DNA of 33,285 bases from Alphaproteobacteria bacterium. GTDB lineage: Bacteria; Pseudomonadota; Alphaproteobacteria; Sphingomonadales; Sphingomonadaceae. Below the pieces are notes generated by a model. It worked only from the letters and a program-made list of their open reading frames with translations, was not told the DNA's origin and did no database searches. A program made the position numbers and the translations under genes. The stretch lies in the NCBI GenBank assembly GCA_018828205.1, contig JAHJWA010000229.1, positions 1 through 33,285 on the forward strand, written 5' to 3'. Positions 4,081 through 26,023 of this stretch are shown here, piece after piece; position 1 is the first letter of the stretch, and every line of letters begins with the position of its first letter.

Positions 4081-4297
4081 CTCCGCTACGGCTGGGAAGT
4101 GCGGAGCGTTGATGGTGTCGCCGGCCCGCCAGGCGCTGGCTGTCTTCTGTCATTTAAAGGATCCAGCCGCCGGCGGCGGTCAGGGCGAGGGATTGAGCCG
4201 CAGGCGCCGGGCGCTCGCAAATTGCGTCCTTCTGTAGCAAAAAAACCAATCGATATAGCATTCTCGAATCACGTTGGAGGGGCTACCCGTTTTCAGG

Positions 4298-4801
4298 ATG
4301 GGGGTTACCAATCTGAAAACCGGTCTGCTGCGCAAATATGCAGCATGGTGCGGTGAGCGTATTCAGCTCCAGAAGAAGATCGCCAAGATCGAGGCTGAAT
4401 ACGAAACTCTATCCGAAAAACGTGATCGGGTTTCGCGCCTAGATGAGCTGACCGAAGCGACAATAACAATCATGGGCGAACTCAATCCTGCCTGGGGACC
4501 GGATGATACGCCGCCCAAGCTGCCGAAAGCCCAGCGAATTCCTTTCGAGCACGGCGCTACCACGGTGACCGCTTTCTCGATCATGCGCGAACTTGGCCGC
4601 GGCACAAACCCTGCCGAACTTGCTCCACTGGTTATAGAGAGACTCGGTGGAGATGCGAAAGATGACGATCTGCGCGACGCCGTTAAGTCGGCAATCGACG
4701 CGAGCCTGCGATCCGCCAGCGAAGAAGTCCGCATCGTCAGCCGGAGACCCACACGCTGGGAAATCATTCCGCCCGAGGAGTGGAAGGATCCTTACGCCTA
4801 G
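4298..4801 (+). CDS. Hypothetical protein with N-terminal coiled coil
   Basis: ORF 4274..4801; ATG at 4298 preferred over TTG at 4274. RKYAAWCGERIQLQKKIAKIEAEYETLSEKRDRVSRL is coiled-coil-like. No family recognised. Confidence 0.5.
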   Translation: MGVTNLKTGLLRKYAAWCGERIQLQKKIAKIEAEYETLSEKRDRVSRLDELTEATITIMGELNPAWGPDDTPPKLPKAQRIPFEHGATTVTAFSIMRELGRGTNPAELAPLVIERLGGDAKDDDLRDAVKSAIDASLRSASEEVRIVSRRPTRWEIIPPEEWKDPYA

Positions 4802-5823
4802 AACGGAAGCCGATTCTTGTGACGCTGCCAGTAACCGGTGAAGCTAGATCTGCCTGCGCGCATAAGGCAGCTGATAATCATGTCGATCTGAGCCCCGTTG
4901 TCGACGAACCTGTTTTCTTCTTTCCATGCAAGCTCAACGCCATACTGCTCGGCATACCGGGGCCACCAGTATCGATAGACCCCACGCTCAGCTGCGCGAA
5001 CACGTGAGAAGAAGCTCTCTGCCCAGTTGGTGCAGGCACCGTTCTGGCTGTAGGATACCGAGTGATTAACGCGCATGAGCTTGAAATGCATGTTCAGGCG
5101 CAACCACTGGTTACCATAATCAACGTGGACGATCGTCCCCGGTTCGAGGACGGATTTTACGAACGCGACGGCAGCTGCCTCGCTTTCCCTATGGATAACC
5201 CTGAGTCGTCCGGGCTTGCTGCCGCCTTCTGACGGCCGCTCTCTCACCACGACTAGGGAAGTCTGTTTCTTGCGATAAAGGTCGTAGAATTTCTCGAGTT
5301 CGGCGTCGTTCGTGATCGGGAACGGCGGTTTCACCTTTTTGCTGCCAACGAACAAACCATCGACCTCAACCACACCATTGAGTTTCTGGTCGTAGTCCAC
5401 CTTGAGCGCTTCTCGGATCTTGTGCTGGAACACGAACGGCGTCTTATAGGAGCTTCCCTCCCACCGCTTCATCCTAAGGGCGGCAGTGCCCATCACGCCG
5501 TTCACGAACTCGGCAATGGAGACGAGAATATCGGAGAACGAGCGCTTCCGGCTATGGAGCGGCGTCCGGCTGGTGACGGTGTATTGCAAATGGCACTTGC
5601 CCGTCCCGCCGGTAACGGGATCGGTAGTCACTCCTTGGCACTTCCACCTGCGACCACCTTTCAGCGTCCAGGATTTATTGGATCCACAGTCCGGGCACGT
5701 CGGCATGCCATCGGGCCACTTGATCGATTTGAACATCTCATAGGCCTCGTCCTCCGTCATGCGGAATATATCGCGCATGGTCAGCGAGCAGATCGCTGGA
5801 GAGAGAAGAGGATGCTGTGCCAC
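4798..5823 (-). CDS. IS1595-family (ISXO2-like) transposase
   Basis: Zinc ribbon CPDCGSNKSW...WKCQG..C; ISXO2-like domain GVVEVDGLFVGSK...IVHVDYGNQW...CTNWAESFFSRVRAAERGVYR. Confidence 0.85.
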   Translation of the reverse strand: MAQHPLLSPAICSLTMRDIFRMTEDEAYEMFKSIKWPDGMPTCPDCGSNKSWTLKGGRRWKCQGVTTDPVTGGTGKCHLQYTVTSRTPLHSRKRSFSDILVSIAEFVNGVMGTAALRMKRWEGSSYKTPFVFQHKIREALKVDYDQKLNGVVEVDGLFVGSKKVKPPFPITNDAELEKFYDLYRKKQTSLVVVRERPSEGGSKPGRLRVIHRESEAAAVAFVKSVLEPGTIVHVDYGNQWLRLNMHFKLMRVNHSVSYSQNGACTNWAESFFSRVRAAERGVYRYWWPRYAEQYGVELAWKEENRFVDNGAQIDMIISCLMRAGRSSFTGYWQRHKNRLPF

Positions 5824-5841
5824 GGTATATGATGTCCTGCG

Positions 5842-5860
5842 TCATCATATATGGTGATGT
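5842..5860. promoter_or_regulatory. Operator-like palindrome 1: TCATCA-N7-TGATG(T)
   Basis: CATCA (5843-5847) - TATATGG - TGATG (5855-5859), in the divergent transposase/DUF6471-like intergenic region. Confidence 0.4.
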
Positions 5861-5880
5861 CATTGCCGTGTCCCTTAAAA

Positions 5881-5901
5881 ATCATCATCGTTTGTGATGA
5901 T
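5881..5901. promoter_or_regulatory. Operator-like palindrome 2: ATCATCA-N7-TGATGAT
   Basis: Perfect 7-bp arms, 7-nt spacer TCGTTTG; same half-site and spacer as palindrome 1, centres 40 bp apart. Confidence 0.45.
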
Positions 5902-5989
5902 GCTGATCACGCAAAGTGACTACAACCCACTTGGCATGCTCGCCGATTCAATCCTACAAGGTGTCTTTAACCTTCAAGGATGTGACGCG

Positions 5990-6289
5990 ATGCCAATCGA
6001 AGAAAAGGTCTGGGAAGAAATGGTGAAGAACATTCTGCGCGCCGAAATGATGCGGCGCGGCGTGTCCTACGCTGGCCTCGCCGAACGGCTCCAGGAGCAT
6101 GGAATCGAAGACAACGAGCTCAACCTTCGCAACAAGGTCAGCCGCGGCCGGTTTACGGCCGTCTTCTTTATGCAATGCATGCAGGCCCTTGGCGTCGAGC
6201 TGCTGCAGATCCCGCAGGCTATCGAAGAAGCTGCACGGAAGGGTGGGGCTCAAGCCCTCGCTAAAAGCAAGGCACAGAAAACGAATTAG
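5990..6289 (+). CDS. DUF6471-like small protein, possibly HTH-type regulator
   Basis: MPIEEKVWEEMVKNILRAEMMRRGVSYAGLAERLQEHGIEDNELNLRNKVSRGRFTAVFFMQCMQALGVELLQI; ATG at 5990 preceded by AAGGA. DUF number from memory, not searched. Confidence 0.7.
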   Translation: MPIEEKVWEEMVKNILRAEMMRRGVSYAGLAERLQEHGIEDNELNLRNKVSRGRFTAVFFMQCMQALGVELLQIPQAIEEAARKGGAQALAKSKAQKTN

Positions 6290-6305
6290 CTGTAGAAACC
6301 GACGG

Positions 6306-9300
6306 TCACGGCTTATCGCGCTTCATCTTTAAGAGAAGCTGTTCACGCTGCAAGCGGGCTATCTGCTTGCTCTTTCGATCAGATCGTTCCTTCTTAGATC
6401 CGCCCCCAATGTCGGCGATCGCTGAAGCGGTGGGAGGCATCAGGGCCTTCACGTGGTCTTCCCGGATGCGGTCATGACGGCGCAAGTGACTTAGATGAAC
6501 CACGAAAGACCAAAGCAAATACGTGTTGTCACGCAGAGTGCCGACTAGGTCGCTCACTGCTCCGGGAGTCTCATCAAGGCGTAATTCCGTGATGAGACCG
6601 ACCCTAAACATCTTGATGACCTTCGGTTCCAGCCCTTCCTCCAGATCCGGTTCGATCAACTGCTTACGCAGTTTCTCGGTGCCCATTGTGGTCGCGATCA
6701 TGCGGATCATCGCATGTGGCAAAGTAATCAGTAACTGCTTGAGCACCGCAGCATCAGTCATGCCCTTGGGTGCCTGCAACTCATAAAGAATGCCATTCAT
6801 GCGGATCTTTCGCTCGGCCGCAAGGCGCGGTGCGAAGCGAGCATTCTCAAGCATAACCGTTCCCCAACTGCGCCAGATGTGCCCCAAGTGCTCCCGCTTC
6901 TTCGCGTCGGTCATGTGCTCGAAATTGCGAAGCATGCCCGAGTAGAGCATCAGCGAAAACATCAGCGCCTCGTGAACGTTGGCGACCTTTGGCCGGAAGA
7001 CTTCCTGCCGCCCTTCCTCGTCCCTAGGTATGTCCAGATCGAACTCTTCGTCCTTCTCTTCCGCCGTAAGTGGCGGCGTGACAATCCGCTCAGCGGCGTC
7101 CTCGATGGTCTCTCCATCGTCATCTCTGGGCAGGACATAATCATCGAAGACATTGAGGTCGATCGGCTGGAGATGTTTGGTTGCCTCCCCGAAAATCGCC
7201 AGATGACGATCGCGCACGAGGTCGATCAGACTCGGGTCATTCCTCGTCTTACCGGCATAGTAGAGCAGCTCATTCACAAACGTGAGATAGCGGTCCTCTT
7301 CCATGACCCACTCCTTGAACGCAGAGTCCACGGTCATCCGGTAAGCGATGAAATATTCCATGACGCCGCGGTAGCGAAACGCGACCCTATTTTCAGAACG
7401 GCGCTCGAAGATTTTGGCCGACAGGAACTCGTCCATCAGCTCATCAAGCGGGGGCGCATCCAGGCCCATCTCGTCGAGACAGGTCCGCATCGCTCCGCGC
7501 ACATCTTCTCGAAGCGGAACATACTGGTTCTCGCGGGCCATCCACGCTGCGACGTAGGAAAGCAGATTGGCTTTGTTGTTGAAGTCGAAGGTGGCCCGGT
7601 AGCTCTGATTCTCGGCAGCTTTCTCCAACGTGGTCTCGACGAACTGTTCCATCAGCACCGCCCGATTGACGGGCGCGAACTTTCCATTCGAGCCGAAGAT
7701 TTCCAGTAGGATGGTGCCATTAGCGGCCGTGAAAGGAAGATTGATTTCGCGGAACTGATCTTGCAACCGGTCGAGCCATCCCTCCACGTCGTCGCAGTGC
7801 TCGAACTTGGTGATTAGCTGGCGCATGTTGCGGCGCTTGAGTTCCTGCAGTTCAATGAAATTGAATCGCACCGGCATCTCTGGATTTACTTTGGCCCCGA
7901 ACCTGTAAACCGCATCCCAGTTGCTCGAGAACACATACCTAGCTTTGGGATATGCTCTGACAAAATCGCGCAACAATCGCATGCGCCTGTTATCGTCAAA
8001 CTGAACGTCATCGACCATGACACACAGGTGGCCCAACTTGAGAAGGGCTTCCGTGTCATGTCTGTCTGGCAGCGGTGCAGCGGCCCCGCGAACCAATCCG
8101 AGCACTTTGGTCACGTTCTGAGCGATCTGCGAGAAATCGATGATAACAGGAAGACGCGGAAACTCACCGTCAGCTACATCGCGCACCATGCGGTGCCGCA
8201 GTTCGCGGAGGAGGCTGGTGCGCCCGTATTCGGGACGCGCATAAATGATCGCATTCCGGCTGCTGGTCACAAGGTCATCGAACGATACTGGCACTTGGAT
8301 TTCTGCAGGTGCATCAGTCGTCTTCGCGTCGATGATCGAAGTCTTCATCATAGGCGGTTCTATGAACCGCTGATGCAATTCCGCGTCACCACCCGGCGCC
8401 GCATCCTCCTCATCTAACCGAGCCTTAAATTCTCCAACGAGATGCGCCCGAAACTCATCAAAATCGACCGGGGCAGCTATCTTGCGGAAGTGCTGACGGG
8501 CTTCGTTGTCCTTATACCATTTCCCACCCTCGTGGATGTCGGTGCCTTCGTCGAACTCGTCCCGCTCTTTGTAGTAGGAGCGGATCAAAACCTCGGTGTG
8601 ATCGGTCGCCCTGTCGATCGTGATCAAAGAATAACCGTTGTAATATTCCTTCCGGGCGGTGAAAATCGCTCCCGCTTGATCGGTGAAAACTTCTCCGCGC
8701 AGGCCCGACACACTCCTGGGCTTAGGATCGTGCATATGCCCGAACAGGTGGTAATGCGCGTGTTTAGTGATCTGGTCTTCGAGGTAGCGAGAAGACGCCT
8801 CGCTGAGCGACGCCAGTGGGTGGTGCGTCGTGAAGATTCGCAGCGATCCCGGCGTCAACGCTTTCACCGCTTCCATGATCGCGTATTCCGGCACTGCCAG
8901 ATTGCGCTCGTCGCTGTCGAACTTGTCGCTTCCTCCGGTCGAAAACACCGCGGTGTTGAAAGTTACGATGTCCACGTTGAGCGCTTCTACCCGATCGACG
9001 CGAACGAAGGCGTTCTCAATTTTGCGGATGTGCTCGTGGTCATCACCCCGCAAATAAGCTTCAAGGTCGTTAAACGCCGCAAACTTATCTTTCGCCAGCT
9101 CATCGTATTCACCGGCATCGAACCGGCGATTTAGCAAGGTCATTTCGTCGTTCTTGCCAAGGTCACCGCGCCATTCTCGATGGGTTTCAGCTGCGCCCTC
9201 AGTCACCCCGCGGGAAAGATCGTGATTGCCCGGGGTAAGGAAAATGCGATCGTCGCTCGTTCCCGTGGCCTTTGAGATGCGCTCGATGAAGAAGTCATAC

Positions 9301-9500
9301 GCCTCATCGTGTGGATCCACGCCTGCAGCTTGGACCAGATCGCCGGTGAAAAGGATCAGGTCGGGCTTGCGATGCCCGATGCACAGCTTCTTCAAGTCAT
9401 CGATCAAGGCATCGACGACGATGCCTTGTTCCCGTGCCTTGCGCTGGGCGTAATGGAAATCGCTGATATGCAGGATGGTGATAAGATCAGGATCGGTCAT
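6306..9500 (-). CDS. Calcineurin-like metallophosphoesterase fused to STAND/NACHT-like P-loop NTPase
   Basis: Start at CAT 9498-9500 gives MTDPDLITILHISDFHYA. Phosphoesterase motifs DFH, FTGDLV, PGNHD, THHP, GHMHD. P-loop-like ARPEYGRTSLL, Walker B-like LCVMVDDVQ, NACHT/STAND-type FRYRGVMEYFIAYRM. Confidence 0.8.
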   Translation of the reverse strand: MTDPDLITILHISDFHYAQRKAREQGIVVDALIDDLKKLCIGHRKPDLILFTGDLVQAAGVDPHDEAYDFFIERISKATGTSDDRIFLTPGNHDLSRGVTEGAAETHREWRGDLGKNDEMTLLNRRFDAGEYDELAKDKFAAFNDLEAYLRGDDHEHIRKIENAFVRVDRVEALNVDIVTFNTAVFSTGGSDKFDSDERNLAVPEYAIMEAVKALTPGSLRIFTTHHPLASLSEASSRYLEDQITKHAHYHLFGHMHDPKPRSVSGLRGEVFTDQAGAIFTARKEYYNGYSLITIDRATDHTEVLIRSYYKERDEFDEGTDIHEGGKWYKDNEARQHFRKIAAPVDFDEFRAHLVGEFKARLDEEDAAPGGDAELHQRFIEPPMMKTSIIDAKTTDAPAEIQVPVSFDDLVTSSRNAIIYARPEYGRTSLLRELRHRMVRDVADGEFPRLPVIIDFSQIAQNVTKVLGLVRGAAAPLPDRHDTEALLKLGHLCVMVDDVQFDDNRRMRLLRDFVRAYPKARYVFSSNWDAVYRFGAKVNPEMPVRFNFIELQELKRRNMRQLITKFEHCDDVEGWLDRLQDQFREINLPFTAANGTILLEIFGSNGKFAPVNRAVLMEQFVETTLEKAAENQSYRATFDFNNKANLLSYVAAWMARENQYVPLREDVRGAMRTCLDEMGLDAPPLDELMDEFLSAKIFERRSENRVAFRYRGVMEYFIAYRMTVDSAFKEWVMEEDRYLTFVNELLYYAGKTRNDPSLIDLVRDRHLAIFGEATKHLQPIDLNVFDDYVLPRDDDGETIEDAAERIVTPPLTAEEKDEEFDLDIPRDEEGRQEVFRPKVANVHEALMFSLMLYSGMLRNFEHMTDAKKREHLGHIWRSWGTVMLENARFAPRLAAERKIRMNGILYELQAPKGMTDAAVLKQLLITLPHAMIRMIATTMGTEKLRKQLIEPDLEEGLEPKVIKMFRVGLITELRLDETPGAVSDLVGTLRDNTYLLWSFVVHLSHLRRHDRIREDHVKALMPPTASAIADIGGGSKKERSDRKSKQIARLQREQLLLKMKRDKP

Positions 9501-9768
9501 TATAACCGCATAAGGAACAGCCAGTGAACATGCAATATGGCTGGAAAGTAGGTGCCACTTATTTGGCGATAACAATTCGCCGTCCTACAAGTCGCTAGTG
9601 ATCAGGGAGAATTCGCGAGTGAAGATCTGAAAGGCACTATTCGCAGCCGCAGACAGGATCCGCGATGCAACTGATGCGAGGGGTATGCGATCGATCTCAC
9701 GAAGAGGGCAATCAAGAATCATCCGACAGGCCGAGGCGCTCGGTGGTAACCTACGATAAGGGGTATTC

Positions 9769-11028
9769 ATGTTCACAGTAGACTTCGGGGACGACGCGGG
9801 AGGGCAGCGATCCTTTGCGGATGTCGACAGCCTCATAGGCTATCTGCGCGAGCAGAAGCAGCTTTGGAACGAACACGTGCTGCTGAAGGGAAGAAATAAT
9901 CAGCCTGGTCATGCCGATCTGAAGTCACTCCCACAAGCATGGGCAAATCTCGAATCCGCAGTCGTTCAGGCCCAGGCGCAGTCGCCGAACCGTCTCGAGC
10001 GCTTGCCTGGGGTCATCCAAGGCAATGGACATTTAAAGCAGGCCCTAAGGGCGGACTCGCCACCCGGAAAGATAGTCGCGTCAATTGCCGAGGAAATTGG
10101 TTTTGAGGAAGCCGGCGGAGCTGCAAAATTCTACCTCGCCCCCCACAATATCCAAATATTCCAGCAGCTGACCAAAGGTCAGGCGATCGGAGCCATTGAA
10201 TTCCAACAACGAATGGCGGGTCTCACCTCAAAAGCAGTGCGAACCGCGAGAGACGCATCACGGGATGCTCTTAGATCGTTCAACGACGATGTCGTTGCGC
10301 ATAGCGCGCATTTGGACGACGCCAGAACGAAGCACACCGAAACCCTTGATCAACTGATTGCTGATGGCGAGACCTTCAAATCCGAAGTGGCAGAATGGCG
10401 AACGAATACGGATGAAGCAATCGCTGCGCAGCGCGAGGAATGGGAAAATAAGTATCAGGCGACCTATGAGGATTTCACCGAGAAACTCAAGCTTGAGTCA
10501 GCCGTGAAATTATGGAACGACAGGTCAGAAGAGCACAAGAAGGGAGCAAGGTCTTGGCAGAAAATTTCCGCGGTAACAGCGGTTTTAGGCTTGATCGTTG
10601 CGCTTGCTATCTCCTTCGGTGCACTGCAACTAGCGGAATGGTTGTTCGCTGACGCATTTGTCGTTGTAGAAGGATCTCCGCTTCCTTCCGGCTTAAGGCC
10701 AACCTGGCGCTATGAGGTCATTTTCGCTTCGGCTGCGACCCTTCTCTATCTTACAATGTTCTTCTGGATCATGCGTATCGTCGTGCGCATATACATGACA
10801 GAACACCACTTGGGGATAGATGCCCAGTCCCGTTCATCAATGGCAGAAACATATCTCGCATTGACGAAGGAGGACGCTGCAACAGATCAAGATCGTGCAA
10901 TCGTGCTGGCATCTCTGTTTCGTCCCCAAGCGGACGGGATCGTGAAGGATGACGGCTTGCCGGCGATCACACCCGCAGCCATTCTCTCGGGATTGGCAAT
11001 TGGCAAACCCGGCGGGTCGTCGTCCTGA
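9769..11028 (+). CDS. Coiled-coil protein with two TM helices, DUF6161-like
   Basis: Long central helical region; TM segments ISAVTAVLGLIVALAISFGALQLAEWLF and YEVIFASAATLLYLTMFFWIMRIVVRIYM; C-terminal MAETYLALTKED...ILASLFRPQADGIVKDDG. Family name from memory. Confidence 0.6.
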   Translation: MFTVDFGDDAGGQRSFADVDSLIGYLREQKQLWNEHVLLKGRNNQPGHADLKSLPQAWANLESAVVQAQAQSPNRLERLPGVIQGNGHLKQALRADSPPGKIVASIAEEIGFEEAGGAAKFYLAPHNIQIFQQLTKGQAIGAIEFQQRMAGLTSKAVRTARDASRDALRSFNDDVVAHSAHLDDARTKHTETLDQLIADGETFKSEVAEWRTNTDEAIAAQREEWENKYQATYEDFTEKLKLESAVKLWNDRSEEHKKGARSWQKISAVTAVLGLIVALAISFGALQLAEWLFADAFVVVEGSPLPSGLRPTWRYEVIFASAATLLYLTMFFWIMRIVVRIYMTEHHLGIDAQSRSSMAETYLALTKEDAATDQDRAIVLASLFRPQADGIVKDDGLPAITPAAILSGLAIGKPGGSSS

Positions 11029-11156
11029 AACTCATGAAAACAGTATCACTGTAACGGAGGCACCAGCACCGGCTAACATCCCCATATCAGGATCCGCTGG
11101 ATCAAAGTCACTTATGAGCTGAAGATTGGTTTTTCTGCTCCATAAGGACGGCAAAT

Positions 11157-11244
11157 TGGCGGACAGGGTGGGATTCGAACCCACGGATGCTTGCGCATCG
11201 GCGGTTTTCAAGACCGCTGCATTCGACCACTCTGCCACCTGTCC
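11157..11244 (-). tRNA. tRNA-Ser (anticodon UGA), CCA encoded
   Basis: Reverse complement GGACAGGTGGCAGAGTGGTCGAATGCAGCGGTCTTGAAAACCGCCGATGCGCAAGCATCCGTGGGTTCGAATCCCACCCTGTCCGCCA: acceptor stem GGACAGG/CCTGTCC, long variable arm, TGA anticodon. Confidence 0.95.
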
Positions 11245-11390
11245 GCGTGGGCTTCGCCGTTAATGGGCGCGCGCGGCATTGTCACGCCCTGACGCGACGC
11301 GATCATCGCTCCTGCCGGAACAAGCCCGAGCGTGGTGGATAGGACACGCAAGACATATCGCGTTCATTGGCGATGTGCGAGGGAGCGCTC

Positions 11391-12425
11391 ATGAAAGTCA
11401 AACGTCCGATGCTCACCCGGTTGAGCAAGTCGATCGCCATCGCTGCGGCGATATTCGTCGCCCAGCCCGCCTATGCGCAGGACATGTCCTTCGATGCCTA
11501 TGTGCAATTGCTAATGGCCAAGGCGCGGGCGCAGGGTGTCAGCGAGGGCACGATCACGCGGATGACGGCAGGTCTCCAGCCCAATCGCCGGGTGATCGAG
11601 CTCGACCAGGCGCAGCCGGGCTCGCCGACGCGGTCGGGCTATCCGCCGCTGTCCGACTATATCGCGCGCCATGTCGATCAGGCGCGGATCGGCCCCGGTC
11701 GCCGCGAATATGCCAGCGCCCGCAGCACCCTCGGCGCGATCGAGCGCGAATACGGCGTCCCGGGAGAGATCCTGATCGCGATCTGGGGTCACGAGACCGC
11801 CTATGGCAATGTCCGCGGCGGGTTCGACCTCTCGCAGGCGCTGGCGACGCTGGCATGGGAAGGGCGCCGCCGCGATCTGTTCGAGGGCGAGTTTCTTGCC
11901 CTGCTGAAGGTTGCCGATCGCGGCTTCTCGCGCTCCGAGCTGCAGGGCAGCTGGGCCGGCGCCTTCGGCAATCCGCAATTCCTCCCCAGCGTCTATCTGC
12001 GCCTCGCGACCGATGGCGATGGCGACGGGACGGCGAACATCTTCACCAACCGCGCGGACACGCTGGCCTCGATCGCCAATTATTTTCGCGACGCCGGCTG
12101 GCGCACCGGCCAGCCCTGGGGCGTAAGCGCCTCGGTGCCGCGCGGCTTCGACATCGCCTCGGTCAGCACCGAGCTGGTCGCGCCGATCTGCCCCCGCGTC
12201 CACGAACGGCACAGCCAGTTCAAGAGTGTGGCGGAGTGGCGCGAACTGGGCGTGCAGCCGCTCAGGCCGCTGGGGGAAACCACGATGGCCTCGCTGTTCC
12301 AGCCCGATGGGCCCGGCAGCCCTGCCTGGCTGTTAACGTCAAATTATCGGGTTATCCTCGAATATAATTGCTCCAATTACTACGCCATGAGTGTGGGTTT
12401 GCTGGCAGATGAGATTACCCGTTAG
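11391..12425 (+). CDS. Lytic murein transglycosylase (MltB-like)
   Basis: Signal peptide ending AYAQD; GVPGEILIAIWGHETAYGN, QGSWAGAFGNPQFLPSVYL, DGDGDG motifs. ATG at 11391 preferred over 11367. Confidence 0.88.
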   Translation: MKVKRPMLTRLSKSIAIAAAIFVAQPAYAQDMSFDAYVQLLMAKARAQGVSEGTITRMTAGLQPNRRVIELDQAQPGSPTRSGYPPLSDYIARHVDQARIGPGRREYASARSTLGAIEREYGVPGEILIAIWGHETAYGNVRGGFDLSQALATLAWEGRRRDLFEGEFLALLKVADRGFSRSELQGSWAGAFGNPQFLPSVYLRLATDGDGDGTANIFTNRADTLASIANYFRDAGWRTGQPWGVSASVPRGFDIASVSTELVAPICPRVHERHSQFKSVAEWRELGVQPLRPLGETTMASLFQPDGPGSPAWLLTSNYRVILEYNCSNYYAMSVGLLADEITR

Positions 12426-13416
12426 AAACCTGATCCGCTTCGGTTCGGCAGCACTCGGCTTTGCGCTTGCTTCCTGCGTGCCCGGAGCCGGCGCGGTCGA
12501 GAGTGAGCTCGCACCGTCCGACGCCCTGATTGCCAACGCGGTGCCCACGGGGCCGCAGGCGGATTATCCGGTCGTGGTGGGCGAACCCTTCACCATCGAC
12601 GGCATCACCCACACCCCGGTCGACGTGCTCAATTACGACGAGGTCGGCTATGCCACCATCGACGAGCCGGGCGCCATCGGGATCAGCGCGGCGCACCGCA
12701 CGCTCCCGCTTCCCAGTTACGTCGAGGTAACCTCGCTCGAGAGCGGGCAGACCATCCTGGCCCGGGTCGAGCGGCGCGGTCCGATGACCAATGCGCGACT
12801 GATCGCGCTGTCGCCCGATGCCCGTGGCCAGCTTGGCGTGAGCGAAGGCACCCCGGTGCGGGTGCGCCGGGTCAATCCGCCCGAGGAAGACCGCGCCGAA
12901 CTGCGCGCCGGGCGTACGGCAAGCTTGCGGATGGAAACCCCGCCCGGCCTGCTCGACGTCCTCAAACGCAAGCTTCCCGCGGTCGGATCGGCGTCGTTGA
13001 GCCGCGCCGAAACCGAGGGCGCGCCTGCGCTTGACGCGACGGCGCCTGCAGCGATCCGCTCGGTGGATCCCGACAGCGGTATGCCCTCTAGCCGGGTTCC
13101 GCTCGAGGACGATGTAACGAGCGGTACGCTAGCCGCCACCAGCACGGCTCCGGCGCCTCCCCCTGCAGCGGCCAAGACATCCGAACCGGATCCCGAGCCC
13201 AGCGCTGCCGGAAATTACGTGGTGCAGGCCGGCGCCTATTCGTCCAAGGCCGCGGCCGAGCGCGTCGCCGAAAGCATCGGCGGCTATCTCGAACCGGTCG
13301 GCAGGCTGTGGCGCGTGCGGGCTGGGCCTTTCGCGACCCGTGGACAGGCCGCGGCCGCGCTCGCCAAGGTGCGCGGTGCCGGTTATAGCGGTGCCCAGAT
13401 TTTCACGCTGAGATAA
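12409..13416 (+). CDS. rlpA: RlpA-like lipoprotein (double-psi beta-barrel plus C-terminal SPOR domain)
   Basis: Lipobox LASC; AAHRTLPLPSYVEVTSLESGQTILARVERRGPM matches the RlpA core; C-terminal NYVVQAGAYSSKAAAERVAESIGG...VRAGPFATRGQAAAALAKV is SPOR. ATG at 12409. Confidence 0.82.
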   Translation: MRLPVRNLIRFGSAALGFALASCVPGAGAVESELAPSDALIANAVPTGPQADYPVVVGEPFTIDGITHTPVDVLNYDEVGYATIDEPGAIGISAAHRTLPLPSYVEVTSLESGQTILARVERRGPMTNARLIALSPDARGQLGVSEGTPVRVRRVNPPEEDRAELRAGRTASLRMETPPGLLDVLKRKLPAVGSASLSRAETEGAPALDATAPAAIRSVDPDSGMPSSRVPLEDDVTSGTLAATSTAPAPPPAAAKTSEPDPEPSAAGNYVVQAGAYSSKAAAERVAESIGGYLEPVGRLWRVRAGPFATRGQAAAALAKVRGAGYSGAQIFTLR

Positions 13417-13424
13417 GCCGCCGG

Positions 13425-14603
13425 GTGCTCCCGGAGGCGGGAGCACAATTGATCCGAACCGTCGCCCTATGCCTGGCAGCCGTGATGCTGGGCGCTGCCA
13501 GCCCTTCCGTTCGGGACCCTGCTCCGCTCCCGCCGAGCGAGCAGGATGCGCCGATCGCCTTGCTCGTCGACCTGTCGAGCGGCCAAACGCTGTTCGCGCG
13601 CGAGACCGAGCGGCGTTTCATGCCCGCCTCGATCACCAAGGTCATGACCGCGCTGCTGGCTTTCGAGCGGATCGAGGACCACCGCCTCTTCCCCGAACAG
13701 GTGATGACGATCCGTCCCGAGACCTTCGAGCGCTGGCACCGGGTCGGTTCGACCATGTACCTTCCCCACGACGCGCGGGTGACGGTCGACGAACTGCTCC
13801 ACGGCATCACCACGGTCTCGGGCAATGACGCGTCGGTCGTCCTGGCCGAAGGCGCGGCGGGATCGGTGGCGCAATGGCTCGAGGGGATGAACGCGACCGC
13901 AGCAAAATACGGCATGCGCGACAGCTATTTCAACACCCCCAATGGCTGGATGGACGATGGCAGGACGTTCACCACGGCGCGCGATCTGGTGACGATGGGC
14001 AGCGCGCTGGTGCGACGCCATCCTGCGAAATACCGCCACTTCTTCGGCGCCGAGGGACTGGAATACAACGGCATCATCCAGCGCAATCATGACCCGATCA
14101 CGGGTAAGGTTGCGGGCGCCGACGGGATCAAGACGGGTTTTACCAATCAGGCTGGCTACGGCTTTCTGGGCAGCGCCGAGCGCAACGGCCGGCGGCTGAT
14201 GATGGTGGTCGCGGCAAGCCCCACCGGGCGGGCGCGCAACGAGGCGTCGCGCGAGTTGATCGAATGGGGCTTTGCCAATTTCGACAGCATCCGTCTGTTC
14301 GAGAAGGACGAGACGATCGCCGAGGCGCGGGTGCAGAATGGTAGCTCGCGAGCCGTGCCCCTGGCGGCGCGCGCGCCTGTCCGACTCTCGCTTCCGCGCG
14401 ACCGCGAGGCCGAGATCGATCTCGCCATCCGCTACGAAGGCCCCTTGCGCGCGCCGATCGAACAGGGTGAGGAGGTCGCTCGGCTGCTGGTCAGCGTGGA
14501 TGGCGAGCAAGTCAATTCGGTGCCGCTGGTCGCGACCCAGACCATCGTCGAGGCCAATCTGCTGCGCCGGGTGTTCAACGGATTGGCCGGGTGGGTCGCT
14601 TGA
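13425..14603 (+). CDS. D-alanyl-D-alanine carboxypeptidase (PBP5/6 type)
   Basis: SxxK in PASITKVMTAL, SGN in VSGNDAS, KTG in DGIKTGFTNQAGYG. Exact start uncertain. Confidence 0.92.
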   Translation: MLPEAGAQLIRTVALCLAAVMLGAASPSVRDPAPLPPSEQDAPIALLVDLSSGQTLFARETERRFMPASITKVMTALLAFERIEDHRLFPEQVMTIRPETFERWHRVGSTMYLPHDARVTVDELLHGITTVSGNDASVVLAEGAAGSVAQWLEGMNATAAKYGMRDSYFNTPNGWMDDGRTFTTARDLVTMGSALVRRHPAKYRHFFGAEGLEYNGIIQRNHDPITGKVAGADGIKTGFTNQAGYGFLGSAERNGRRLMMVVAASPTGRARNEASRELIEWGFANFDSIRLFEKDETIAEARVQNGSSRAVPLAARAPVRLSLPRDREAEIDLAIRYEGPLRAPIEQGEEVARLLVSVDGEQVNSVPLVATQTIVEANLLRRVFNGLAGWVA

Positions 14604-15244
14604 ACCCCGGCCGGTTCGTTGCGCTCGAGGGCGGGGAGGGTACGGGCAAGTCGACCCAGGCCCGGCTGCTGACCGATGCGCTTGCGGCGCGCGAGATCGA
14701 CGCCGTGCTCACCCGCGAACCGGGGGGGACCCCGGGCGCCGAAGCGATCCGCGCCCTGCTGCTCGATCCGCCGGGCGAGGGCTGGGGAATGCGCGCGGAG
14801 GCGCTGCTGTTCGCGGCGGCGCGCTCTGACCACGTCGAGCGGCTGATCCGCCCCGCGCTGGAGGCCGGGCGCTGGGTGGTGTGCGACCGCTTTCTCGATT
14901 CAAGTCGCGCCTACCAGGGCAGGGCCGGAATGCTCGGCGACGAACTCGTTCGCGCGCTCCACGAACAGGGAAGCGAAGGACTCCTGCCCGATCTGACGCT
15001 GGTGATCGCGGTCGAGGGCGCCACCGCCGCCGCGAGGTTGTCCGCCCGCGACGGTGCGGTTTCCGATGCGATCGGCGGGCGCGACGCGACCTATCACTCC
15101 AGCGTCAACGCCGCCTTCGTCGAATTCGCGGCAGCGGAGCCCGGCCGCTTTGCCATAATCGATGGCGAGGGCTCGGTGGAGGAAGTCCATGCCCGCATCC
15201 TCGCCGCTATCGAACCGCTGCTCGCAAGGGGTTCGAGCGCATGA
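14591..15244 (+). CDS. tmk: Thymidylate kinase
   Basis: RFVALEGGEGTGKSTQARLL, TREPGGTPGAEAIR, CDRFLDSSRAYQG. Confidence 0.95.
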   Translation: MGRLNPGRFVALEGGEGTGKSTQARLLTDALAAREIDAVLTREPGGTPGAEAIRALLLDPPGEGWGMRAEALLFAAARSDHVERLIRPALEAGRWVVCDRFLDSSRAYQGRAGMLGDELVRALHEQGSEGLLPDLTLVIAVEGATAAARLSARDGAVSDAIGGRDATYHSSVNAAFVEFAAAEPGRFAIIDGEGSVEEVHARILAAIEPLLARGSSA

Positions 15245-16188
15245 TCGGCCACGACGACGCCTGGAGCGCGTGGCGCGATGCGATGGCGGGCGAGCGGATG
15301 CACCACGCCTGGCTGCTGGCGGGCAAGTCGGGGCTGGGCAAGATGCACTTCGCGCTCGCCGCTGCGCGCGAGCTGGTGGGGGCCGATCCGGGTGCCGAGC
15401 ACCATCCCGACATCTATATTCTCACGCATCTTCCCAAGGACGACAAGGAGGAGCGCAAGCGCGAGGAGGGCAAGCCCTTCGAGATCAAGCGCAACATCAC
15501 CATCGGCCAGATCCGATCGATGCAGCAGCGCCTCAACACCCGCCCGACGATGGGCGAGCGGCGCGCGATCATCGTCGATCCTGCCGACGATATGGAGCGC
15601 AACGCCTCCAACGCGCTGCTCAAGAGCCTGGAGGAGCCGCCGGTGGGCACCTTCTTCCTGCTGGTCAGCCATCGCCCGGCCAAGCTCCTCCCGACCATAC
15701 GTTCGCGCTGCCGCACGCTGCGGTTCCACGCGCTCGCCGATGAGGAGATCGCACAGCTGCTCGCGCGGCTGGCCCCCGATGCGAAGGATGCGACCCGCGC
15801 CGCTGCGCTTACCGCTGCCGCCGGTTCGCCCGGGCGCGCGCTGGCCTTCGTCGAACTCGGTCTGGGCCCCGTGGCCCAGATCCTGCACCTGATCGCGGAG
15901 CAGGGGGATCCCGAATTCACCCTGCGCGGCGAGCTGGTGTCGGCCATCGGCACGCGGCCCGATCGCGCCCGGCTCGAGGCGGTGCTCGAACTGGCGCGCT
16001 CGATCCTCGACGAGGGCCTGGCCGATCTCGACCGCAAGGTTGTGTCCCAGCGGATCGCCGCGCATGCCGAACTCGTCCGCCTCTCGGGCGAGATGCCGAC
16101 CTACAATTACGATCCGGGGCTGCTGGTGATGGAAATCGGCACCTTGCTCGCGGGCGCGGCGCAGTCTAGCGGAGGCCCCCATGGCTGA
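15241..16188 (+). CDS. holB: DNA polymerase III subunit delta'
   Basis: ATG at 15241 overlaps the tmk stop; HHAWLLAGKSGLGKMHFALAAARELV, NASNALLKSLEEPPVGTFFLLVSHRPAKLLPTIRSRC. Confidence 0.9.
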   Translation: MIGHDDAWSAWRDAMAGERMHHAWLLAGKSGLGKMHFALAAARELVGADPGAEHHPDIYILTHLPKDDKEERKREEGKPFEIKRNITIGQIRSMQQRLNTRPTMGERRAIIVDPADDMERNASNALLKSLEEPPVGTFFLLVSHRPAKLLPTIRSRCRTLRFHALADEEIAQLLARLAPDAKDATRAAALTAAAGSPGRALAFVELGLGPVAQILHLIAEQGDPEFTLRGELVSAIGTRPDRARLEAVLELARSILDEGLADLDRKVVSQRIAAHAELVRLSGEMPTYNYDPGLLVMEIGTLLAGAAQSSGGPHG

Positions 16189-17737
16189 GCCCTTCTACAT
16201 TACCACTGCGATCAACTATCCCAACGGTCGCCCGCACATCGGCCACGCCTATGAGGCGATCGCCGCCGATGTCATCGCGCGCTTCCAGCGGTTGCGCGGG
16301 CGCGAGGTTCGGTTCCAGACCGGGACCGACGAACATGGGCTCAAAATGGCGCGCAAGGCCGCCGAGCAGGACCGCACACCGCGCGCTCTAGCCGATGAAA
16401 TGTCCGGATATTTCAAGGCAATGGATGACGCTCTTGATATTTCCTACGACCGCTTCATCCGCACGGTCGAGGACGATCACCACCGCGCAAGCCAGGCGAT
16501 CTGGCGGGCGATGGAGGCCAAGGGCGATCTCTATCTCGACCGCTACGAAGGCTGGTATTCGATCCGCGACGAGGCCTATTACGACGCCAGCGAGCTGAAC
16601 GAGACCGAGGCCGGCGAGAAGCTTTCGCCGCAGGGCACCCCGGTCGAATGGACCGTCGAGGAAAGCTGGTTCTTCCGCCTGTCGAACTATCAGGACAAAT
16701 TGCTCGAACTGCTGCGAACCCCGGGCTTTCTCGAGCCCGAGAGCCGGCGCAACGAGATGATTTCCTTCGTCGAGGGCGGATTGCGCGACCTCTCGGTCAG
16801 CCGCACCAGCTTCGACTGGGGGGTCAAGGTCCCGGGCAGCGACGAGCATGTGATGTATGTCTGGGTCGATGCGCTGACCAATTATCTGACCGGACTGGGC
16901 TATCCCGAGGACACCGGGGACTGGCGCCGCTTCTGGCCCGCCAGCCTGCACCTGATCGGCAAGGACATCGTCCGCTTCCACACGGTCTACTGGCCCGCCT
17001 TTCTGATGAGCGCCGATCTGCCGCCACCGCGCAAGGTCTTCGGCCACGGCTTCATCCTCAACCGCGGGCAGAAGGAATCCAAATCGCTCGGCAATGTCAC
17101 CGATCCGCTCGCGTTGGCGGAGAATTTCGGGGTCGACAATCTGCGCTATTTCCTGATGCGCGAAGTCGCCTTCGGACAGGACGGCAGCTATTCGGCCGAG
17201 GCGATCGTGGCGCGCTGCAACGCCGAGCTTGCCAACAGCTTCGGCAATCTGGTCCAGCGCGCCTTGTCGATGGTGCACAAGAATCTGGACGGCGCGCTGC
17301 GCGCCTTTTCTCAGACCGATGCGGACCGGGCGCTGCTGGCAACGGTGCGCAAATCCTGCGGCGAAAGCCTGCCCGAGCGCTTCGAGGCGCTCGATTTCAG
17401 CCAGGGGATCGAAGCCTGGATGCAGGCGGTCTGGGCCTGCAATCAATATGTCGATGAGCAGGCGCCCTGGGCGCTCAAGAAGACCGATCCGGAGCGGATG
17501 GAAGCGGTGCTGCTGACGCTGGTGCTCGCCATTCGCGATCTCGCGCTGGCGATCCAACCCGTGATCCCGACCCGCGCCGGTGCGGTGCTCGACATGCTCG
17601 GGATCCGCGATGACGAGCGCAATTATGCCGATCTCGACAATGCGGGCTGGTACGACGCGCTGGTCGCGGCCGGACACGTTATCGCCAAGCCCGAACCGAT
17701 GTTCCCGCGGCTCGAACTCGCCACCGAGGACGCGTGA
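16181..17737 (+). CDS. metG: Methionyl-tRNA synthetase
   Basis: FYITTAINYPNGRPHIGHAYEAIAADV, GTDEHGLK, ESKSLGN (KMSKS-type). Confidence 0.95.
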   Translation: MAEPFYITTAINYPNGRPHIGHAYEAIAADVIARFQRLRGREVRFQTGTDEHGLKMARKAAEQDRTPRALADEMSGYFKAMDDALDISYDRFIRTVEDDHHRASQAIWRAMEAKGDLYLDRYEGWYSIRDEAYYDASELNETEAGEKLSPQGTPVEWTVEESWFFRLSNYQDKLLELLRTPGFLEPESRRNEMISFVEGGLRDLSVSRTSFDWGVKVPGSDEHVMYVWVDALTNYLTGLGYPEDTGDWRRFWPASLHLIGKDIVRFHTVYWPAFLMSADLPPPRKVFGHGFILNRGQKESKSLGNVTDPLALAENFGVDNLRYFLMREVAFGQDGSYSAEAIVARCNAELANSFGNLVQRALSMVHKNLDGALRAFSQTDADRALLATVRKSCGESLPERFEALDFSQGIEAWMQAVWACNQYVDEQAPWALKKTDPERMEAVLLTLVLAIRDLALAIQPVIPTRAGAVLDMLGIRDDERNYADLDNAGWYDALVAAGHVIAKPEPMFPRLELATEDA

Positions 17738-18513
17738 TGCTGGTCGATAGCCACTGCCATCTGGAATATAAGGGCCTCGTCGAGGAACAGGCTGCGGTGC
17801 TCGATCGAGCGCGCGCCGCGGGGGTGAAGACCTTCCTCAACATCTCGACCAAGCGCTCAGAATGGGGTCAGGTCGTGGGCACCGCCGAGCGCGAGCCGGA
17901 CGTTTACGCCAGCGTCGGGATCCACCCGCACCACGCCGACGATCACCAGGATCTGACCCATGCGGAGCTGCGCGAAGCCACCGACAACCCGCGGGTCATC
18001 GGGATCGGCGAGACCGGTCTCGACTATTATTACGAGCATTCGGATCGCGCGGCGCAGCAACGCCTGTTTCGGCTTCATATCGCGGTGGCGCGCGAGGTGC
18101 AGCTGCCGGTGATCATCCACACCCGCGACGCCGAGGACGACACGCTCGCCATTCTCGAGGACGAGCTGGGGAAGGGCGGTTTCCCGGCGCTGATCCACTG
18201 CTTCACCGCCTCGGCGCAATTCGGCGAGAAGGTGCTCGCGCTGGGCCTTTCGATCTCGATCTCGGGGATCGTCACCTTCAAGAACGCGCGCGATCTGCAG
18301 GCGGTGGCGAAGACCGTTCCGGGCGACCGGCTGCTGGTCGAGACCGACAGCCCGTTCCTCGCACCCGTGCCGCATCGCGGCAAGCCTTGCGAGCCGGGCT
18401 TCGTCCGCGACACCGCGGCCTTCCTCGCCGAATTGCGCGGCGAGAGCCTCGACCATCTCGCCGAGACCACCACGCGCAATTTTCATGCCTTGTTCGCGAA
18501 GGCCGCGGCGTGA
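17734..18513 (+). CDS. TatD-family hydrolase/DNase
   Basis: VDSHCHL, GIGETGLDYYY, HCFTAS, LLVETDSPFLAPVPHRGKPCEPGF. Confidence 0.92.
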   Translation: MMLVDSHCHLEYKGLVEEQAAVLDRARAAGVKTFLNISTKRSEWGQVVGTAEREPDVYASVGIHPHHADDHQDLTHAELREATDNPRVIGIGETGLDYYYEHSDRAAQQRLFRLHIAVAREVQLPVIIHTRDAEDDTLAILEDELGKGGFPALIHCFTASAQFGEKVLALGLSISISGIVTFKNARDLQAVAKTVPGDRLLVETDSPFLAPVPHRGKPCEPGFVRDTAAFLAELRGESLDHLAETTTRNFHALFAKAAA

Positions 18514-19277
18514 AGCTGCTGATGCTCGGCTCGGGCACCTCGACCGGGGTGCCGCGGATCGGCAACGATTGGGGCGAATGCGACCCCGCCGAACCGCGCA
18601 ACCGCCGGACCCGCGTCTCGATCCTGGTCGAGAACGACGCCGGTCAGCGGATCCTGATCGACACCTCGACCGATCTGCGCCAGCAATTGCTGACCAACGG
18701 CATCGACCGGGTCGACGCGGTGCTGTGGACGCATGATCATGCCGATCATTGCCACGGGATCGATGATCTGCGCGTGATGCGCTACGACCGCAGCAATGCG
18801 CTGCCGGGCTATGCCGATCCCAAGACCGCGCGGAACCTGCGCCGAAGGTTCGACTATGTCTTCGAAGGCCAGCATGGCTATCCGACACTGATCGAGCTGT
18901 CCGACCTGCGCGACCAGCGACTGGTCGCCGGCTTCTCGCTCGAATGGGTCGAGATGCCGCACGGACCGACACACAGCACCGGGTTCCGGCTCGAGGCCGA
19001 TGGCGCGTCGCTGGTCTATGCGACCGATTACAGCGAAATCACGCCGCAGATGCTGTCCTGTTTCGCCGGGGTCGATCTGCTCGTGAGCGATTGCCTGCGC
19101 CGCGCGCCGCATCCCACGCATGCCAGCCTGGGCCTGGCGCTGGAGCTGGCTTCGAAAACCAAGGCGAAGAAGACCGTGTTGACCCATCTCGACAAGAGCA
19201 TGGATTACCGCGCCTTGTCCCAGGAAGTGCCCAAACGCGTCATCGTCGGCTACGACGGCCTGGAACTGGCGGCATGA
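18510..19277 (+). CDS. MBL-fold metallo-hydrolase (PhnP-like)
   Basis: GTG at 18510 overlaps the tatD stop; LGSGTSTGVPRIG, WTHDHADHCHGIDDLR, LTHLDKSMDY. Confidence 0.85.
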   Translation: MKLLMLGSGTSTGVPRIGNDWGECDPAEPRNRRTRVSILVENDAGQRILIDTSTDLRQQLLTNGIDRVDAVLWTHDHADHCHGIDDLRVMRYDRSNALPGYADPKTARNLRRRFDYVFEGQHGYPTLIELSDLRDQRLVAGFSLEWVEMPHGPTHSTGFRLEADGASLVYATDYSEITPQMLSCFAGVDLLVSDCLRRAPHPTHASLGLALELASKTKAKKTVLTHLDKSMDYRALSQEVPKRVIVGYDGLELAA

Positions 19278-19444
19278 GCCAATTCGATGTCGTCTCGATC
19301 ATCTCGTTGGTGGGTTTTCTGGTGCTGGCGATCAGCGCGCTGTCCGCGCATCGGCTGTCGCTCAGGAAGGGCGTGGTCATGGCTTTGGCCTGGGCCGCGA
19401 TCTTCGCGATCGTTGTGCTGTTCATCAGCCTGATCGAGGGATGA
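19274..19444 (+). CDS. Small membrane protein (56 aa, two predicted TM helices)
   Basis: ATG at 19274 overlaps the preceding stop; MSQFDVVSIISLVGFLVLAISALSAHRLSLRKGVVMALAWAAIFAIVVLFISLIEG. Confidence 0.7.
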   Translation: MSQFDVVSIISLVGFLVLAISALSAHRLSLRKGVVMALAWAAIFAIVVLFISLIEG

Positions 19445-19474
19445 CCGCCCTCTGCGCCCCGCCTCTTGTTTAAC

Positions 19475-19488
19475 ATAATATATATTAT
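19475..19488. promoter_or_regulatory. Perfect AT-only 14-bp palindrome ATAATATATATTAT upstream of mazG
   Basis: Self-complementary, 9 bp before the mazG ATG, within AT-rich DNA in an otherwise GC-rich region. Confidence 0.4.
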
Positions 19489-19497
19489 CATTCCAAT

Positions 19498-20268
19498 ATG
19501 CCCGACGCATCCAGCCAACTGACCCGCCTCCTCGCCGTCATGGCCCGGCTGCGCGATCCCGAGCGCGGCTGCGAATGGGATCTGGCGCAGGACTTCGCCT
19601 CCATCGCGCCCTATACGATCGAGGAAGCCTACGAAGTCGCCGATGCGATCGAGCGTTCCGACATGGACGATTTGCGCGGCGAACTCGGCGACCTGTTGCT
19701 TCAGGTCGTGTTCCATGCGCGCATGGCGGAAGAAGCCGGACATTTCGCTTTCGCCGATGTCGCCCGATCCATCGCCGACAAGATGGAAGCCCGCCACCCG
19801 CATATCTTCGGCGACGAGGCCGGCAGCATGGCCGAGACGCGCTGGGAAAACCTCAAGCAGTCCGAGCGCGAGGCGGCCGGGGCGACCAGCGCCCTGGATG
19901 GGGTGGCCAAGGCGCTTCCCGCGCTGATGCGGGCCCAGAAACTGCAGAAACGCGCCGCACGCATCGGCTTCGACTGGCCCGATGTCGCAGGCCCCAAAGC
20001 GAAGATTTTCGAGGAAATCGAGGAACTTGAAAGCGCCTCGTGCGAAACCCGCGAAGAGGAAGCCGGCGACCTGCTGTTCGCGGCGGTCAATCTGGTCCGC
20101 GCTTATGGGATGGATGCCGAAGAAGCGCTTCGCGCCGCCAATACCAAATTCGAACGGCGCTTCCGGGCGATGGAAGAGCTTGCTCATGGCGACTTCGCCG
20201 ATCTCTCGCTCGACCAGCAGGAAGCGCTCTGGCAAGCCGTTAAACGCGGCGAGAAAAACGCCTCCTAA
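19498..20268 (+). CDS. mazG: Nucleoside triphosphate pyrophosphohydrolase
   Basis: LLAVMARLRDPERGCEWDLAQDFASIAPYTIEEAYEVADAIE, GELGDLLLQVVFHARMAEE. Confidence 0.95.
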   Translation: MPDASSQLTRLLAVMARLRDPERGCEWDLAQDFASIAPYTIEEAYEVADAIERSDMDDLRGELGDLLLQVVFHARMAEEAGHFAFADVARSIADKMEARHPHIFGDEAGSMAETRWENLKQSEREAAGATSALDGVAKALPALMRAQKLQKRAARIGFDWPDVAGPKAKIFEEIEELESASCETREEEAGDLLFAAVNLVRAYGMDAEEALRAANTKFERRFRAMEELAHGDFADLSLDQQEALWQAVKRGEKNAS

Positions 20269-21584
20269 AGCGAGGAAAACCTACCAAATTCCTTCGGCGT
20301 CAACCGGACAGACAGCAGCCGCACGGGACCTTCGCCCAGATCGGCGCTCTGTTCCTCGATGACCTGGCCATGCTGATGCAACCAGGCACTGCGCATCCCG
20401 TCTCCCGCGGTCAGCTCGATCTCATAAGTGCGCGAATCCTGCGTCAGCAGCGCATCGATCCGCTCGAGCAGGGTCTCGACCCCCTCCCCCGTCAACGCCG
20501 AGATCGGAATGCTTCGGTCGTCATGCGAGGCGATCTCGGTGAGTTCCGCCCGCCGCTCGTCAGGCAGTGCGTCGAACTTGTTCCAGGCTTCCAGCATCGG
20601 GATCTCGCTTGCCCCGCTTTCGCGATCGATCACCTCGAGATCGGTCAGAATCTGCAGAACCTGCTGCTTCTGCGCCGCGGCATCGGGATTGGCCATGTCG
20701 CGGACATGGACGATCACATCGGCGCCCGTGACCTCTTCGAGAGTCGCGCGGAAGGCTGCGACCAGCTGGGTGGGCAGATCGGAGATAAACCCGACGGTGT
20801 CCGACAGAATCGCCTTCTCGATCCCGGGCAGCTCGATCGCGCGCATCGTCGGATCGAGCGTGGCGAACAGCAGATCTTCCGCCATGACGTCGGAGCCGGT
20901 CAAGCTATTGAATAGAGTGGATTTCCCGGCGTTAGTATAGCCCACCAGCGCGATCACCGGCCAGGGCGCCCTGCCCCGTCTGGCGCGATGCAGCGCGCGC
21001 GTCTTGCGGACCTGCTCCAGCTCCTTGCGCAGCTGCCCCATCCGCCCGCGGATCAAACGGCGGTCGGCCTCGATCTGCGTTTCGCCCGGACCGCCGAGGA
21101 AGCCGAAGCCGCCGCGCTGACGCTCGAGGTGGGTCCAGCTGCGCACCAGCCGACTCTGCTGGTAATCCAGATGTGCCAGCTCGACCTGAAGCCGGCCCTC
21201 GGCGGTCGCGGCGCGTTCGCCGAAGATTTCGAGAATCAGTCCGGTGCGATCGATGACCTTGCGCGCCAGCTTGTCTTCGAGATTGCGCTGCTGGATCGGG
21301 GTCAGCGTCCCGTCGACCACCACCAACTCGGCCTCTTCCTGTTCGCACTGGATGCGGATGTTGTCGACCTGGCCCGAACCGAACATCAGATTCGGCTTCA
21401 CCTGCCGCACGGGCAGCACGAAAGCCTCGGCGATCTCGATGCCGATCGCGAGCGCCAGCCCCTTCGCCTCCTCGAGCCGCGATTCGGCATCGAGTTCGTA
21501 GGACTGGCCGCGAATATCGGGACAGATGACGAGAGCCCGCGCACCGCGCGAGACTTCACCCAGCAGGTCGTCGTCGAAGCTCAG
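20265..21584 (-). CDS. hflX: Ribosome-associated GTPase HflX, likely CTG start
   Basis: GTPase motifs [32 protein letters not shown]. The frame stays open upstream of the GTG at 21419 with HflX-like sequence [53 protein letters not shown]; the CTG at 21584-21582 is the most likely start. Confidence 0.85.
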
Positions 21585-22138: not shown

Positions 22139-22309
22139 GAATCTGCCTCCTGTTGTTGGCGGCCGCTACGCGCAGTCCGCAATCTGGAGAGCCCACCCGG
22201 CCCGCTGCCGGATGCGCTACCCGTGTAATCTGCGCGAATGTGGGTCGTGCCGCCCAAAACACAAATGCTTTTAGCGCCGCCGCGTTCCGCGTCTAGTCGG
22301 CGAGGGGGC

Positions 22310-23695: not shown

Positions 23696-23706
23696 GCTAA
23701 GCTACC

Positions 23707-25962: not shown

Positions 25963-26023
25963 CGTTGCCGGGTTACAACGATACTGTGGCCATTATGCAA
26001 GCTATTAATCGGCAGTCCGCGCG

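Follow-up and report, generated by a model that had tools for sequence, protein, structure and literature searches.

A gene on the minus strand of the window (the whole stretch of 33,285 nucleotides analysed here, contig JAHJWA010000229.1 of a Sphingomonadaceae alphaproteobacterium) encodes a metallophosphoesterase fused to a STAND nucleoside triphosphatase (NTPase) and lies inside a small transposon, which raises the question of what such a protein does and why it is carried there. The gene was a single intact open reading frame (ORF) of 1064 amino acids (aa), from the ATG at 9500 to the stop at 6306; an alternative in-frame TTG start at 9575 is possible, although less likely. The reading favoured here, with a probability of roughly 0.68, is that the gene encodes a single-protein, NLR-like system against phages or other invaders, carried as cargo of an IS1595-family transposon and working by the mechanism proposed below; that the protein is an anti-phage or anti-invader system is in itself likely. 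The anti-phage reading is supported by family membership, fold, active site, modularity, genomic contexts, cargo of sister transposons, patchy distribution and the ratio of nonsynonymous to synonymous substitution rates (dN/dS). As judged from sequence and models, the protein consists of an intact phosphoesterase of the binuclear-metal type, a NACHT/STAND switch and a C-terminus made of helices, and its gene is under selection and has moved between mobile elements.

Family membership and architecture of the phosphoesterase-STAND protein

The protein matched the PADLOC family PDC-S60 (PDLC05051) over residues 7–868 at 300 bits (E = 1.1e-89), corresponding to profile positions 1–847 of 1027; however, PDC-S60 is a candidate phage-defence family only, and neither a published mechanism for it nor useful papers on nSTAND4 or calcineurin-CE were found in the literature searched. 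The NCBIfam model DS8_antiphage (NF053861) was matched over residues 11–573 (6e-26) with 90.4 bits against a curated cut-off of 790, so that the window protein is a relative of DS-8 and not DS-8 itself. DS-8 (DefensePredictor system 8), published in 2026, is a single anti-phage protein that combines a metallophosphatase with a NACHT domain; its defence is abolished by catalytic or by NACHT mutation, its substrate is unknown, and it has been compared with the cGAMP phosphodiesterase SMPDL3A (PMC13092281). The window protein likewise possesses an N-terminal metallophosphatase and NACHT in one polypeptide, but differs in having Arg instead of the Walker A Lys, in its carriage by an IS1595 transposon and in that its anti-phage role is only predicted. 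Thus, the NLR-like sensor/effector proposed in the original prediction gains support from a distant relative that is anti-phage and needs both domains. DS-8 was compared only via its profile and its TIR-STAND relatives, because a search of E. coli DNA with a DS-8-like gene gave no match; phage genome records also gave none.

Calcineurin-type domains were listed earlier, in computational work, among the effectors that STAND-type conflict systems use (PMC8195603, PMC7159879); the phosphoesterase-STAND architecture is therefore already known, and the window protein is a divergent branch of it. The DS-9A phosphoesterase (NF053862) has a homologous metallophosphatase domain (37 bits), but DS-9 consists of two genes, includes a HAD phosphatase and has not been described as having a STAND (PMC13092281). 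Avs and bNACHT proteins share the arrangement of effector, NTPase and presumed C-terminal sensor; the window protein differs from them in belonging to the nSTAND4 clade with a phosphoesterase effector, and no Avs or bNACHT profile was among its PADLOC matches.

The N-terminal part matched Pfam Metallophos at residues 8–259 (E = 7e-13). The calcineurin-type motif set on which the original prediction had relied (DxH, GDL, GNHD, HHP and GHMH) was found in full, as SDFH (residues 13–16), GDL (53–55), GNHD (91–94), HHP (226–228) and GHMH (254–257), and looks catalytically intact; when 12 relatives of full or nearly full length were aligned, among them sequences from S. meliloti, Sphingomonas, Klebsiella, Paracoccus plasmids and prophage-type contigs, these metal and active-site motifs were invariant or nearly so wherever the region was present. 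The Walker B-like VMVDD was located at about residues 494–498, with D497 invariant among the relatives, and MEYFIAYRM, proposed to be of winged-helix type, lay inside the match to nSTAND_NTPase4 (PF24406, residues 675–718, E = 1.7e-7, above its cut-off). A STAND fold in the middle region, which structure prediction was to check, was recovered: when the full-length AlphaFold2 model was compared with the PDB by Foldseek, NACHT structures came first (NLRP3, 1.4e-11; NLRC4, 8e-11; NOD2, 2e-10), YydB was also matched (2.8e-11), and the NTPase and winged helix mostly had a predicted local distance difference test score (pLDDT) of 70–90. The C-terminal region, described beforehand as helical without TPR or LRR repeats, indeed gave no Pfam match to either repeat and was predicted to be helical at low confidence. 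In a viral structure library the best match was a phage protein named NLR-like (2e-9), which was not informative, followed mostly by AAA ATPases and SbcD-like nucleases.

Every domain had a dN/dS of about 0.03–0.04 in comparison with the closest relatives, a ratio that is only approximate at dS above 1; such strong purifying selection rules out a chance ORF. An hhalign comparison of the window family with a TIR-STAND set gave 99.5% probability (E = 8e-23) across the stretch from the NTPase through the winged helix to the C-terminal region. In four genomes sampled, a different N-terminus preceded the DS-8-type STAND and C-terminal region; it was TIR by Pfam in the three scanned (L028, L030 and L032; L029 was likewise listed as having TIR in place of the phosphoesterase). 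Related STAND cores carried other effectors, SIR2 (L062) or PNP (L052), and the phosphoesterase domain was also joined to NACHT (L039) or FGE-sulfatase domains (L035). Effector swapping of this kind is typical of the modularity of NLR-like defence.

Modelled alone, the enzyme domain reached a pLDDT of 74 and a predicted template modelling score (pTM) of 0.82. Its Foldseek matches were YydB (2e-17), which from this match we take to be a phosphoesterase, Lmo2642 (6e-11) and the cyclic-nucleotide phosphodiesterase Rv0805 (9e-9), with purple acid phosphatases, GpdQ and SMPDL3B/A among the further matches and Mre11/SbcD mostly lower ranked. This ranking is weak evidence that the domain is a phosphodiesterase with small or nucleotide-type substrates and not a DNA nuclease, and the effector probably acts on a nucleotide-type phosphodiester rather than on nucleic acid. 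It is possible, if somewhat unlikely, that the same NLR-like switch controls an Mre11/SbcD-like nuclease degrading phage or host DNA or RNA. The NCBIfam SbcD profile matched the protein weakly (4.6e-5), a related PADLOC profile labelled "Effector, Endonuclease" matched at 57.7 bits, and Mre11/SbcD structures appeared in the Foldseek results; nevertheless, YydB, Lmo2642, Rv0805, the purple acid phosphatases and GpdQ ranked above them, and it is SMPDL3A to which DS-8 has been likened in print (PMC13092281).

The IS1595-family transposon, its sisters and the contexts of relatives

The gene is cargo of a complete IS1595-family transposon of 6.9 kb (nt 4225–11150, Table 1) with a GC content of 0.55, versus 0.66 in the flanks. 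Its 27-bp inverted repeats are 89% complementary and are bordered on both sides by a perfect 8-bp target duplication, GCAAATTG, the duplication length of the IS1595 family. When ends were accepted only together with an 8-bp repeat, the two termini agreed at 19 of 22 bases, against at most 17 in 200 shuffles. The transposase scored 93.2 bits with NCBIfam NF033547 (cut-off 75). The DDE_Tnp_IS1595 transposase with its zinc ribbon, the inverted repeats and the duplication are those of the IS1595 family, but this element and its clade differ in bearing multi-gene defence cargo (restriction-modification or STAND). The insertion point is the 3′ end of a tRNA-Ser. A tRNA-integrated island with att repeats was considered and rejected: the window contains no repeat of the tRNA-Ser 3′ end, and the boundaries are explained by the inverted repeats and target duplication. 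No second copy of the transposase end was found in the same genome, nor was a clean empty site in the relatives; G1182 is without the transposon, but alignment to it is lost some 150 bp to the left of where the transposon is inserted.

Table 1. Features of the transposon in the window and of its closest sister transposons (positions of the sisters refer to their own stretches)
Feature	Position	Strand	Basis
Left copy of 8-bp target site duplication GCAAATTG	4217..4224	.	
Left terminal inverted repeat, 27 bp	4225..4251	+	
175-aa ORF, transposon core, possibly coiled-coil, homologues in sister elements	4274..4801	+	No Pfam family
IS1595-family transposase with zinc ribbon	4798..5823	-	Pfam DDE_Tnp_IS1595 7.8e-25, Zn_ribbon_IS1595 2.4e-11
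DUF6471 protein, 131 aa from GTG, domain 40-102, perhaps a regulator	5894..6289	+	PF20075 5.3e-31
Metallophosphoesterase-STAND fusion protein, 1064 aa	6306..9500	-	ORF, Pfam, PADLOC, NCBIfam, alignment, model, Foldseek
Helical C-terminal region, about residues 731-1064, presumed sensor	6306..7309	-	Model, hhalign
NACHT/STAND NTPase and winged helix, about residues 380-730, Walker A Arg for Lys	7310..8363	-	Pfam, model, alignment, Foldseek, hhalign
Calcineurin-type metallophosphoesterase domain, about residues 1-343	8472..9500	-	Pfam, alignment, domain model, Foldseek
Upstream region, probable promoter region, partly conserved with Sphingopyxis granuli (L003)	9501..9768	-	Sequence comparison
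DUF6161 protein, AbiZ-like, second cargo gene, divergent from the STAND gene	9769..11028	+	PF19658 2.3e-23
Right terminal inverted repeat	11124..11150	-	
Right copy of target duplication GCAAATTG, reaching 3′ end of tRNA-Ser	11151..11158	.	
Sister transposon L109: type I restriction-modification genes	8314-18572		
Sister transposon L110 (merged with L136): type I restriction-modification and DUF4365	8731 to 20291		
Sister transposon L111: C5 methyltransferase, AAA protein matching a restriction-enzyme profile, LlaJI-type endonuclease	8527-14855		
Sister transposon L137/L138 (G1220, merged): type I restriction-modification genes	17490-26452		

Related transposases were present in 22 of the 251 same-family genomes. 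At 17 of 18 related loci, 19 to 22 of 22 end bases matched together with a perfect 8-bp duplication, delimiting elements of 3.0 to 10.3 kb, while in the 18th (G053) all 22 end bases matched, with the ends at 8731 and 20291 of a merged stretch, and the duplication was shifted by one base. In the transposase tree the window element grouped with L109, L110, L111 and G1220 (branch support 1.0), and defence-type genes occurred in all five complete elements of this closest clade, the window element included. Since the four closest sisters recovered all possess restriction-modification genes, this looks like a defence-carrying IS1595 clade, in a small sample of five elements from one bacterial order; G1145, which has the 175-aa ORF, is cut by a contig end and was left out. 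One sister transposon also encodes an MvdD/RimK-like ATP-grasp protein. Elements outside the clade, whose cargo was spot-checked, were mostly smaller, a few having AlbA_2/Schlafen-type, Fic/Doc, NYN or SocA/Panacea genes (L142, 733–7048; L144, 930–5668; L118; L125). DUF6471 was observed in nearly all sister elements, and the 175-aa ORF and the DUF6471 protein travel with the transposase in most related elements.

That IS1595 elements can carry passenger genes is known in general. The literature searched, itself an incomplete coverage, gave only general surveys of insertion sequences (IS) on IS1595 elements with passenger genes or restriction-modification, and contained no report of a defence-carrying IS1595 clade or of a conserved Lys-to-Arg P-loop. 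Tentatively, the clade might be a dedicated carrier of immune systems (type I and II restriction-modification, phosphoesterase-STAND), with a STAND cargo whose P-loop variant signals by nucleotide binding with little or no hydrolysis. The DUF6161 protein, in which a coiled coil and predicted membrane segments were seen by eye, is a second candidate defence cargo: the PADLOC profile of AbiZ, from Lactococcus abortive infection, matched only a central stretch of about 126 aa (8e-13, 46.5 bits), a partial and weak likeness that makes it a candidate only. As a partner gene it was rejected, as it is not adjacent to close relatives of the STAND gene. The cargo of the sisters also bears on the idea that the protein guards the transposon or its host from competing plasmids and mobile elements, not from phages, which is rather unlikely: the gene is on mobile elements throughout, and restriction-modification is active on any incoming DNA, but the characterised relative DS-8 targets phages (PMC13092281).

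Among the 251 same-family and 301 same-order genomes the STAND gene was rare and patchy, occurring sporadically, and it was absent from all listed same-genus genomes except its own. A housekeeping context, one of the outcomes that would have told against the original prediction, is excluded because the relatives occur in transposons, on plasmids, in islands and in a prophage. The G166 copy lies inside a Tn7-like element with TnsB/TnsC/TniQ-like genes (by eye), adjoins genes matching PADLOC DUF1156_MTase (1182 bits), DUF499 (1027 bits) and PLD_Helicase (621 bits), and is broken by a transposase-like gene. The copy of Sphingopyxis granuli (L003) is beside Hsp70-like, IetA-like AAA and DUF4062-like genes (by eye except the AAA); that of Erythrobacter colymbi (L002), truncated at its 5′ end, has transposase genes on both flanks; that of S. 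meliloti is on a conjugative megaplasmid that also bears an IS256 element along with toxin-antitoxin genes and an integrase; and that of L054, in a prophage-type contig, adjoins a cytosine methyltransferase (by eye). Insertion sequences split relatives of the gene in two genomes (L082, 10565–12237; L083, 8115–9600). A natural two-gene version in G210 was rejected, an IS3-type transposase (by eye) separating the halves.

STAND proteins also have regulatory roles, and the divergent gene pair within the transposon would suit a regulatory or housekeeping STAND protein, or a transposon addiction module, with no immune role. This is nonetheless quite improbable, as defence-type neighbours occur in several relatives and in sister elements, effectors are swapped with TIR, SIR2 or PNP, presence is sporadic and there is no conserved partner gene.

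The P-loop variant and the proposed switch

The P-loop-like segment named in the original prediction is real but atypical: in ARPEYGRTSLL an Arg (Arg427) replaces the Walker A Lys, and the pattern GxxxxGK[ST] is not matched. EYGRT with Arg was common to the window protein and to L003, L002, L005/G166 and L024, four relatives whose identity to the window protein ranges from 92% to 43%; the Walker B Asp is intact in this clade. The Lys was kept in L054, L025, L026, L033, L055, L056 and L057, and the position was Ser in L027 and Gly in the IS-broken copy of G210. Retention of the Arg across such divergence suggests function, and by fold and by homology to the Lys-bearing relatives the window protein belongs to the NACHT/STAND superfamily as a P-loop variant. 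Because the Walker A Lys is Arg throughout the clade, the STAND switch may, on general knowledge of P-loops, not hydrolyse ATP normally. That the gene is decaying, its switch dead after loss of the Walker A Lys and its protein no longer working, would fit the substitution itself and the IS-disrupted copies in G166 and G210, but is highly improbable given an Arg common to five sequences down to 43% identity, Walker B and all metal ligands preserved wherever a sequence covers them, and a dN/dS near 0.04.

For the favoured reading, an NLR-like anti-phage or anti-invader system, the following mechanism is proposed. In the resting state the NACHT module would keep the phosphoesterase inactive. Recognition of a phage or invader component by the C-terminal region would lead to nucleotide-driven opening and oligomerisation, which would cluster and activate the phosphoesterase; the active enzyme would then cleave a phosphodiester, more likely in a nucleotide-type small molecule than in genomic DNA, and the infected cell would stop growth or die ahead of phage release. 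With Arg at the Walker A Lys in the clade, the switch probably works through binding or exchange of the nucleotide, hydrolysing it weakly or not at all. Sensing by the C-terminal region, oligomerisation, cleavage of a phosphodiester, abortive infection and the altered nucleotide cycle are steps that we infer by analogy.

Several points weigh against this reading. Anti-phage activity of the window protein is a prediction by analogy; its score is far under the DS-8 equivalog cut-off (90 versus 790 bits), and the more distant full-length relatives are only about 20–25% identical. The full-length model, built from seven sequences, is of moderate confidence (pLDDT 66.8, pTM 0.44), and because its C-terminus is poor, often below 50, the sensor role of that region is an assumption. 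The IS-split copies in G166 and G210 indicate that the gene is dispensable or costly in places, and the switch may be crippled by the Arg in its Walker A motif.

Implications for STAND defence and IS1595 elements

The phosphoesterase-STAND architecture has so far one published anti-phage example, DS-8. The TIR-for-phosphoesterase replacements (L028, L029, L030 and L032) offer a ready effector-swap comparison, and with the divergent natural P-loop variant one can test directly if ATP hydrolysis is required by the NLR-like switches of bacteria. Should the IS1595 clade prove to be a carrier of defence, transposons as small and simple as these would represent a new type of vehicle by which defence systems travel, and the transposase, DUF6471 and the ORF of roughly 170 aa would provide a handle for finding undiscovered systems through their cargo.

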